Origin: Salinigranum halophilum
GTDB taxonomy: Archaea; Halobacteriota; Halobacteria; Halobacteriales; Haloferacaceae
Assembly: GCF_007004735.1 (NCBI RefSeq)
Contig: NZ_ML660182.1
Span: 738,130-802,129, forward strand
Direction of reading: 5' to 3'
DNA: 64,000 nt
The position numbers and the translations under genes were made by a program. The notes beneath the pieces are model-generated. The model was given only the letters and a program-made list of their open reading frames with translations, was not told the origin of the DNA and did no database searches. Positions within the stretch are counted from its first letter, which is position 1, and each line of letters starts with the position of its first letter. This document shows positions 36,445-38,562 of the stretch, piece after piece.

Positions 36445-38250
36445 TTACAGCTGGTCCTCCGAGAGGGCGAACTGTCCGTTGGGCGCACCGGAGGCGACCA
36501 TCGGGTAGACGTTCTCCGCGGGGTCGACGTGGAAGTCGATGACCGACGGACCGTCGTACGCGAGGGCCTCCTCGATGGCGTCGGCGACCTGGTCGTAGTC
36601 GTCGACGCGCCAGCCGCGCGCGCCGAACGCCTCCGCGAGACGGTCGAACTCGGGACACCAGTTGTACTCGGCCGCCATTCGACGACCCTCGTAGAAGGCG
36701 TCCTGCCACTGTCGAACCATCCCGATGTACTCGTTGTTGAGGACCGCGACGGTGATGTCCATGTTCTCGCGGACGGCCACGGACAGCTCCTGCATCGTCA
36801 TCAGGAACGAGCCGTCGCCGTCGAAACAGACCACCGAACGGTCCTCCTGTCCCATCTGGTCGGCGGCGAGACGGGCACCGATTGCGGCGGGGAGGCCGTA
36901 CCCCATCGTCCCTAACCCGTGCGATGAGACCCACGTCCGCGGTTCACGGTAGGTCCAGTACTGGGAGGCCCACATCTGGTGCTGGCCGACGCCCGTGGTG
37001 ACGATGGTGTCGTCGCCGGTGGCCTCGTCGAACGCTTCGACGACGAACTGCGGTTTGATGGGTTCGTCCGACGGCGCTGCGTAGTCCATCGGATACTCCT
37101 CTTTCCACGTCTGGCACTGCTCGCGCCACTCGCGCGCGTCGGGCGAGTGGTCCATCCGCGCGTCGACCTGGTCGAGCACCCGGCCGGCGTCACCGACGAG
37201 CGGGTAGTCCGCGTGGACGTTCTTGCTAATCTCGGCGGGGTCGATGTCGATGTGGACCACCTCCGCCTCGGGCGCGAACGTGTCGATGCCGCCTGTCAGC
37301 CGGTCGTCGAACCGGGTGCCGACTGCGATGAGGAGGTCGGTGTGGGTGATGGCCATGTTCGCGTAGCCGGTCCCGTGCATCCCGGCCCACGACAGACAGA
37401 GGTCGTGGTCCTCGGGGAAGGTTCCGATGCCGGGCATCGTCGTCACCACGGGGATGCCGTGGTCGATGGCGAACGCCCGAGCCGTCTCGGTGGCGTTGCC
37501 CTTGACGACGCCGCCGCCGAACAGCAACACGGGCTTCTCGGCGTTCTCGATGGCCCGTGCCGCGACCTTCACGTCCTTCTCGTCCGCCTCCATCTGGGGG
37601 TTGTACGTCTTCGGCGGGCGCGCGGGCCCGGGCTCGCGCCCGGTCTCGCTCTGTGTGATGTCCTTCGGCAGGTCGACCAGCGTCGGTCCCGGTCGGCCCA
37701 TACCCGCGAGGGCGAACGCCTCGCCGACGGTGTCGCCGACGGTGTCCGCGTCGCCCGCGAAGTAGTTGTGTTTCGTGACCGGCGAGGTGACGCCGATGGT
37801 GTCGGTCTCTTGGAAGGCGTCCGAGCCGACCATGTCGCTCGGCACCTGGCCCGTGAGCGCCAACACGGCGTCGGAGTCCATGTTCGCGTCGGCGAGGCCG
37901 GTCACGAGGTTCGTCGCACCCGGCCCCGACGTGGCGAGACAGACGCCCGGCTCGCCCTTGACGACGCCGTACGCGTCCGCCGCGTGAGATGCGCCCTGTT
38001 CGTGGGCCATCATCACGTGTCGGATCGAGGAGTCGTACAGCGCGTCGTAGACGGGCATAATCGCGCCGCCCTGGACGCCGAAGGCCGCCTCGACGCCCGC
38101 GTTCTCGAGCGCGCGAACGACGGAGGACGCACCGGTCGTGACCGGTCGTTCCTCGGCTCGCTGTTCGTCCGCTCGTGGCTGTTCCTCCGCTTCGGTCGAC
38201 TCCGGTGTGGAGTCGTCCGCTTCGGGTGTCGGTGTCGCACGTTCGCTCAT
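36445..38250 (-). CDS. ilvB: Acetolactate synthase large (catalytic) subunit
   Basis: IlvB is the ThDP enzyme that condenses pyruvate with pyruvate or 2-oxobutyrate. The 601-residue protein shows FGVQGGAIMPVYDAL, the catalytic Glu segment MMAHEQGASHAADAY, the FAD-domain motifs and the ThDP motif FDGDGSFLMTMQELSVAVRENM ... NNEYIGMVRQWQ. About 40 acidic residues precede the core. It is the first structural gene after a roughly 180-base leader with strong secondary structure, and it begins the ilvB-ilvN-ilvC-(83 aa)-leuC-leuD run. Confidence 0.95.
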   Translation of the reverse strand: MSERATPTPEADDSTPESTEAEEQPRADEQRAEERPVTTGASSVVRALENAGVEAAFGVQGGAIMPVYDALYDSSIRHVMMAHEQGASHAADAYGVVKGEPGVCLATSGPGATNLVTGLADANMDSDAVLALTGQVPSDMVGSDAFQETDTIGVTSPVTKHNYFAGDADTVGDTVGEAFALAGMGRPGPTLVDLPKDITQSETGREPGPARPPKTYNPQMEADEKDVKVAARAIENAEKPVLLFGGGVVKGNATETARAFAIDHGIPVVTTMPGIGTFPEDHDLCLSWAGMHGTGYANMAITHTDLLIAVGTRFDDRLTGGIDTFAPEAEVVHIDIDPAEISKNVHADYPLVGDAGRVLDQVDARMDHSPDAREWREQCQTWKEEYPMDYAAPSDEPIKPQFVVEAFDEATGDDTIVTTGVGQHQMWASQYWTYREPRTWVSSHGLGTMGYGLPAAIGARLAADQMGQEDRSVVCFDGDGSFLMTMQELSVAVRENMDITVAVLNNEYIGMVRQWQDAFYEGRRMAAEYNWCPEFDRLAEAFGARGWRVDDYDQVADAIEEALAYDGPSVIDFHVDPAENVYPMVASGAPNGQFALSEDQL

Positions 38251-38333
38251 GTGTGTGTCTCGGCTTGGTGTGGTGATCGCTGCACTCGGTGGTCGGTTCT
38301 GAACTGGCCGGTCGGCGAGGAGAAGAGTGTGTG

Positions 38334-38435
38334 AGGGGCTAGGCGGCCCCTACAATCGACCCGATAGCGGCGACACTGTCCGTGCCCGACGGGCGGGCGT
38401 CGCACGAAGTGGGACAGTGTCTCATCGTATCGGGT
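38334..38435 (-). promoter_or_regulatory. Nested stem-loop in the ilvB leader (candidate attenuator or riboregulator)
   Basis: Three nested perfect stems were found: 38359-38366 with 38428-38435 (8 bp, ACCCGATA/TATCGGGT), 38372-38381 with 38412-38421 (10 bp, GACACTGTCC/GGACAGTGTC) and 38384-38388 with 38394-38398 (5 bp). The outer internal loop is only 5 by 6 bases. A separate hairpin, 38334-38339 with 38346-38351 (6 bp), lies nearer ilvB. The TATA element predicts transcription starting near 38430, so most of the structure should be in the RNA. Function is inferred. Confidence 0.55.
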
Positions 38436-38451
38436 GAGATACGCTCGTCTC

Positions 38452-38457
38452 ATAAAA
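38452..38457 (-). promoter_or_regulatory. TATA element of the ilv operon
   Basis: On the minus strand TTTTAT lies about 200 bases before the ilvB ATG. Transcription is expected about 25 bases downstream, near 38430, giving an unusually long leader for a haloarchaeon. Confidence 0.5.
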
Positions 38458-38562
38458 CCCTTTCGTGAGCGTCGTCGCGCACGCGGACGCCCACGGGGTC
38501 GCACCGGTCCGCCGTCACGGACCTGCCGCTCGCGGACGGTCGCGAACGGGAGGGAGGGCATC

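Follow-up and report, generated by a model that had tools for sequence, protein, structure and literature searches.

How is the branched-chain biosynthetic operon of a haloarchaeon controlled from the leader that precedes ilvB? The window analysed here, a stretch of 64,000 nucleotides, is haloarchaeal DNA of the genus Salinigranum, and its IlvB is 93% identical to that of S. salinum. The minus strand carries, in order, leuA (to 38563), a promoter and leader, ilvB, ilvN, ilvC and leuC; ilvB (36445..38250), which encodes the acetolactate synthase large subunit (TIGR00118, E 3.5e-207), is the first gene behind the putative attenuator. In Haloferax volcanii, ilvB1 (HVO_1508) is required to make all three branched-chain amino acids (PMC4300041). 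An earlier note on this DNA had proposed a possible archaeal attenuator or riboregulator upstream of ilvB, built from nested stems and a competing pairing. The comparison presented here strengthens the case for an attenuator, but the anatomy proposed for it has largely been replaced by one in which a leader ORF, its control codons and a terminal hairpin are decisive.

Up to 400 nt upstream of ilvB were taken from 98 haloarchaeal loci with GTAGGGG as the search anchor, a motif found in every locus tried. Four loci without a usable start were set aside, and 94 share a common design; because many of these are closely related, about a third being from Halorubrum, counts over the 94 loci are not independent events. 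The leader is present in all four Salinigranum genomes. All features of the window described below lie on the minus strand. The TATA box TTTTAT, seen earlier, is present at 38457-38452 (38452..38457) with a BRE-like CGAAAGGG just upstream (38465-38458), and its position predicts a transcription start in the region 38424..38430 (about 38427), a few nucleotides from the ATG of a leader ORF that is absent from the earlier note. In 68 of the 94 relatives an AT-rich hexamer lies at -32 or -33 relative to the leader ATG, and the distance from the start of the TATA box to the first ATG is 31–33 nt in 79 of 94. Since the ATG follows the first TATA base by about 32 nt and the archaeal TATA box is centred near -27, transcription is predicted to begin within a few nucleotides of the ATG, making this a leaderless ORF.

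The stems reported before were found again: an 8-bp stem formed by ACCCGATA (38435-38428) and TATCGGGT (38366-38359), a 10-bp stem formed by GACACTGTCC (38421-38412) and GGACAGTGTC (38381-38372) that encloses a small 5-bp hairpin, and a 6-bp hairpin formed by AGGGGC (38351-38346) and GCCCCT (38339-38334), as was the CGTATC/GATACG repeat. RNA spanning 38437-38320 folds at -53.3 kcal/mol, compared with -37.7 ± 3.7 kcal/mol for dinucleotide shuffles (z = -4.2); none of the 200 shuffles folds as well, and the leader is therefore structured beyond chance. Two elements of the earlier proposal, the 8-bp outer stem and the CGTATC/GATACG switch, were nonetheless rejected. The 5′ arm of the stem lies upstream of the predicted start, the competing pair lies upstream of or at it, and none of the three other Salinigranum genomes keeps the stem intact.

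Covariation in relatives, proposed earlier as a check on the stems, failed to support the outer stem, which is not conserved within the genus, but did support the 10-bp stem, whose arms coevolve across genera. Among 28 genus-level groups, arms of this stem paired with their own partners at a mean of -21.3 kcal/mol versus -17.4 ± 0.56 kcal/mol with those of other groups (0 of 300 permutations), and a control segment upstream of the ATG gave -15.2 versus -14.4 kcal/mol in the same arm-swap comparison. Relative to dinucleotide-shuffled arms the mean z was -1.2. Within Salinigranum, GACAC/GTGTC changes to GGCAT/ATGCC, both arms together. Judged by sequence comparison, the 10-bp pairing forms part of a conserved, co-varying stem inside the leader ORF (38372..38421), where it pairs codons just past the ATG with a segment some six codons ahead of the control codons. 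The strong folding of the leader and the conservation of a stem within the ORF are also what a translation-independent riboswitch or protein-binding RNA acting through the nested stems, of the kind suggested by the alternative pairing in the earlier note, would produce. We regard such an RNA as very improbable, since the outer stem is not conserved and is predicted to be untranscribed, the body of the sequence lacks the conservation expected of a ligand pocket, no Rfam match was obtained, and the reading frame is kept with control codons that track the downstream gene.

The leader ORF (38339..38425), a short frame between the promoter and the first structural gene, encodes MRHCPTSCDARPSGTDSVAAIGSIVGAA in 28 codons followed by a TAG stop; it spans the stems and stops within the 6-bp hairpin. 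When the TATA box was picked by composition alone and the first ATG beyond it was taken, this ATG shared the frame of the hairpin codons at 93 of the 94 loci, over 21 ORF lengths that range from 14 to 43 codons. The leaders retain the stop but differ in which codon provides it (TAG in 47 relatives, TAA in 30 and TGA in 17). The encoded C-terminus follows the pattern (Leu)-(Ile)-Ile-Val-Gly-(Ala/Val)-(x)-stop in the 94 relatives. Control codons in the window are ATT (Ile) and GTA (Val) at 38351..38356, with a further ATC (Ile) codon at 38365-38363. The codon preceding GTA specifies Ile in 92 relatives and Val in two, and GTA and GGG are invariant in all 94, although this invariance arises partly by construction because GTAGGGG was the search anchor. 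Only two of the control codons do not vary. Isoleucine accounts for 42% of the four codons ending at GTA versus 1.5% of the remaining peptide. Rare codons appear to serve as the control codons, because five genes of the window use GTA at 1 of 193 Val positions and ATT at 5 of 80 Ile positions. Third-position changes are not in excess in the peptide body, where variability does not peak at this codon position; constraint at the protein level is therefore apparent only at the ends of the leader ORF.

The 6-bp hairpin had been ranked as a mere further hairpin; it is among the decisive elements. It forms the core (38351-38346 / 38339-38334) of the putative attenuator hairpin, TGTAGGGGC-CGCCTA-GCCCCTCACA (38330..38354), which was identified by folding and scores 39.7 bits with R1, a covariance model of the leader hairpin. 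The Ile/Val codons run into this structure, GGGGC-CGCCTA-GCCCC in the window, and the leader stop codon (38341-38339) lies inside it, made up of loop bases and the first base of the 3′ arm; 93 of the 94 relatives have their stop codon within the loop or next to it. Among the 94 relatives GTAGGGG(C/T) pairs with (G/A)CCCC, followed by TAC or TCAC, with a mean energy of -12.6 kcal/mol and a mean z of -4.6 against mononucleotide shuffles. The loop-closing pair switches between C-G and U-A (35 cells versus 17.2 in shuffles). The genome to which the window belongs contains two other GGGGC..TAGCCCC sites, neither of which resembles a promoter-proximal leader. The hairpin is followed by a G-free stretch (38317..38334; median 17 nt among the 94 relatives) with a T/C-rich patch (CTCTTCTCCT), a candidate termination site by its composition. 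TTC, TTTC or TTTT occurs at +9 to +20 past the hairpin in 76 of 94 relatives versus 12% of background windows, and in most relatives the T-rich patch is located at +12 to +14 (T 55–67%), not as a U-run adjacent to the conserved hairpin.

Taken together, ribosome-mediated attenuation by a leader peptide is the probable function of the element. Sequence comparison shows an ORF, control codons and a hairpin that are conserved and coevolve, with codons that match the gene behind, and the sensing of charged tRNA is well supported. Stalling, hairpin occlusion and transcription termination as the output are the steps that we infer from this arrangement. Translation of the predicted leaderless transcript would begin at its 5′ end, and the ribosome on the leader would gauge charged Ile- and Val-tRNA, in many relatives Leu-tRNA as well, at rare codons directly ahead of, or inside, the 5′ arm of the hairpin. 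When Ile- or Val-tRNA is uncharged, the ribosome would stall at ATT/GTA with its footprint over GGGGC; because the stalled ribosome would cover the 5′ arm, the hairpin would not form, and transcription would therefore continue into ilvB-ilvN-ilvC and the leu genes. When the tRNAs are charged, the ribosome would reach the stop codon in the hairpin loop and leave, the hairpin would form, and RNA polymerase would stop at the T/C-rich patch 12–16 nt downstream. The stem in the ORF would probably synchronise RNA polymerase with the ribosome. Among 13 folded representatives, none showed a mutually exclusive antiterminator, and in most of them the ORF stem and the terminal hairpin form side by side.

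Several features of the leader speak against this reading. Besides the lack of an antiterminator in the folds, the small number of invariant control codons and a peptide body with no surplus of third-position changes, the T-rich patch is short and lies 12 nt past the hairpin, unlike a classical intrinsic terminator. Another is a tentative second small ORF (38247..38285), which has only a GTG start in the window and whose TGA overlaps the ilvB start as ATGA; the overlap suggests translational coupling, probably the role of this ORF, and points to a possible translational output. An ATG-started second ORF between the hairpin and ilvB ends in ATGA in 67 of 94 relatives, compared with 2 and 4 in the other frames, and the ilvB start has no recognisable Shine-Dalgarno sequence in 54 of 94. 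The main rival explanation rests on this overlap: the same codon sensor would act without transcription termination, stalling or termination on the leader gating the second ORF and the ATGA-coupled ilvB start. We consider this unlikely, though by no means negligible, as a termination site accounts better for the fixed G-free stretch and T-rich patch. The second small ORF is also rich in His and Arg.

The near-invariant Val-Gly-(Ala/Val) C-terminus ahead of ilvB raises a different possibility, that of an arrest peptide whose nascent IVGA-stop end would respond to a free amino acid by halting the ribosome at the stop codon, in place of a stall caused by uncharged tRNA at the control codons. VGA is also common to the leaders of valS described below, but those of ileS end in IIAG[QHR], the final residues differ among leaders (A, V, L, S, N, H, P, R), the hairpin needs the invariant bases as well, and codon changes match the gene behind, so that arrest by the peptide has only a slim probability.

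The distribution of the hairpin bears further on attenuation by the leader peptide. R1 matched 280 of 292 Halobacteria genomes, representing 74 of 78 genera, with 12 genomes lacking a match. One genome of the same family (G012, locus L302) has an ilvB without a recognisable leader. Outside the Halobacteria, 13 weak matches were obtained, and the four that were inspected look like chance. Many genomes carry a second match, and in the 16 genomes followed up, most of the second matches read lie upstream of valS. Direct inspection upstream of valS found leaders in 14 of 30 diverse genomes, none of them in Salinigranum or the other Haloferacaceae sampled. These leaders end in VFVGA[PSAF], AFVGAP, VVGAS or VRVGA[SP]; all 14 retain Val codons and none has Ile at the control position. 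For ileS, inspection of the upstream region by eye revealed no leader in 29 of 30 genomes, the exception being Haloferax, where a leader is common to 15 of 15 genomes. It reads Ile-Ile (ATT ATT or ATT ATC), GCG GGG, CAG/CAC/CGC and TAG, with Ala in place of Val, and the hairpin is kept with other bases (GCGGGGC-AGTA-GCCTCGC). No leuS leader was found in 15 loci inspected. The control codons thus match the gene behind them, (Leu-)Ile-Ile-Val for ilvB, Val for valS and Ile for ileS, which would be expected from codon-specific sensing and not from a translation-independent RNA. It is fairly probable that these leaders constitute a class-wide archaeal regulon (ilvB, valS, ileS) controlled by attenuation on leaderless leader peptides, with the stop inside the hairpin and the stalled ribosome as the sole antiterminator.

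Leader-peptide attenuation is a textbook bacterial mechanism that requires coupled transcription and translation, and the ilvL and ivbL leaders of enterobacteria are ribosome-mediated transcription attenuators of branched-chain operons. Bacterial ilvB leaders are well known, that of Corynebacterium among them (PMC10272879, PMC11857589). Bacterial branched-chain attenuators share with the haloarchaeal leader a short ORF with terminal branched-chain codons, a hairpin at or after these codons and a biosynthetic operon behind. The haloarchaeal leader differs in its archaeal promoter, its predicted leaderless ORF, its few and rare control codons, a stop inside the hairpin, the lack of any separate antiterminator found, a U-rich patch 12 nt past the hairpin, and its occurrence before valS and ileS as well. 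T-box leaders of Gram-positive bacteria likewise use one device for a biosynthetic operon and synthetase genes, with the codon matched to the gene, but T-box RNA reads tRNA directly without translation, whereas the haloarchaeal codons appear to sit in a translated frame. A catalogued RNA leader such as the T-box, or a catalogued leader-peptide family, was rejected for want of database matches: Rfam covariance models produced no hit at the gathering score, and relaxing the cut-off to E 10 brought up nothing but unrelated chance matches; five leader peptides compared with Pfam and NCBIfam had no match up to E 10.

In H. volcanii, termination in vivo reached 95% of transcripts at a T stretch ending in C and 59%, with readthrough, at one tested hairpin (PMC7237163). 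Both elements, a T stretch ending in C and a hairpin, recur in the leader; the terminators in the passages concerned are ends after or within genes, and the word attenuation does not occur in the paper's text. No case of archaeal leader-peptide attenuation was found in the open-access literature searched, and because most subscription papers lie outside this literature, the claim to novelty is limited to it: within that scope, and if the reading is true, the haloarchaeal leaders would represent the first documented archaeal example. A device in nearly all Halobacteria with codons suited to the pathway or synthetase behind it would make coupling, leaderless initiation and regulated termination testable together, and Haloferax volcanii offers a tractable model for archaeal coupling.

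Several further leaders were observed. A second ilvB paralogue (L184, genome G089) has its own leader ending in VAIIGAQ, with Ile-Ile and no Val codon. An intact-looking extra leader ending in ..ARLIVGV, with the hairpin kept, is present at about position 460 of the reverse complement of locus L303 (genome G224); it has no obvious same-strand gene behind it and may be an orphan copy or a small RNA. In Haloferax (L246-L260), a transcript carrying the long ileS leader would give an IleRS extended at its N-terminus (MSESD.. preceding the usual MEDIADQYTP), and the extension contains a second, leaderless promoter (TTTTGATATATA). The Haloferax ileS leader together with its second ORF resembles a copy of the ilvB leader region.
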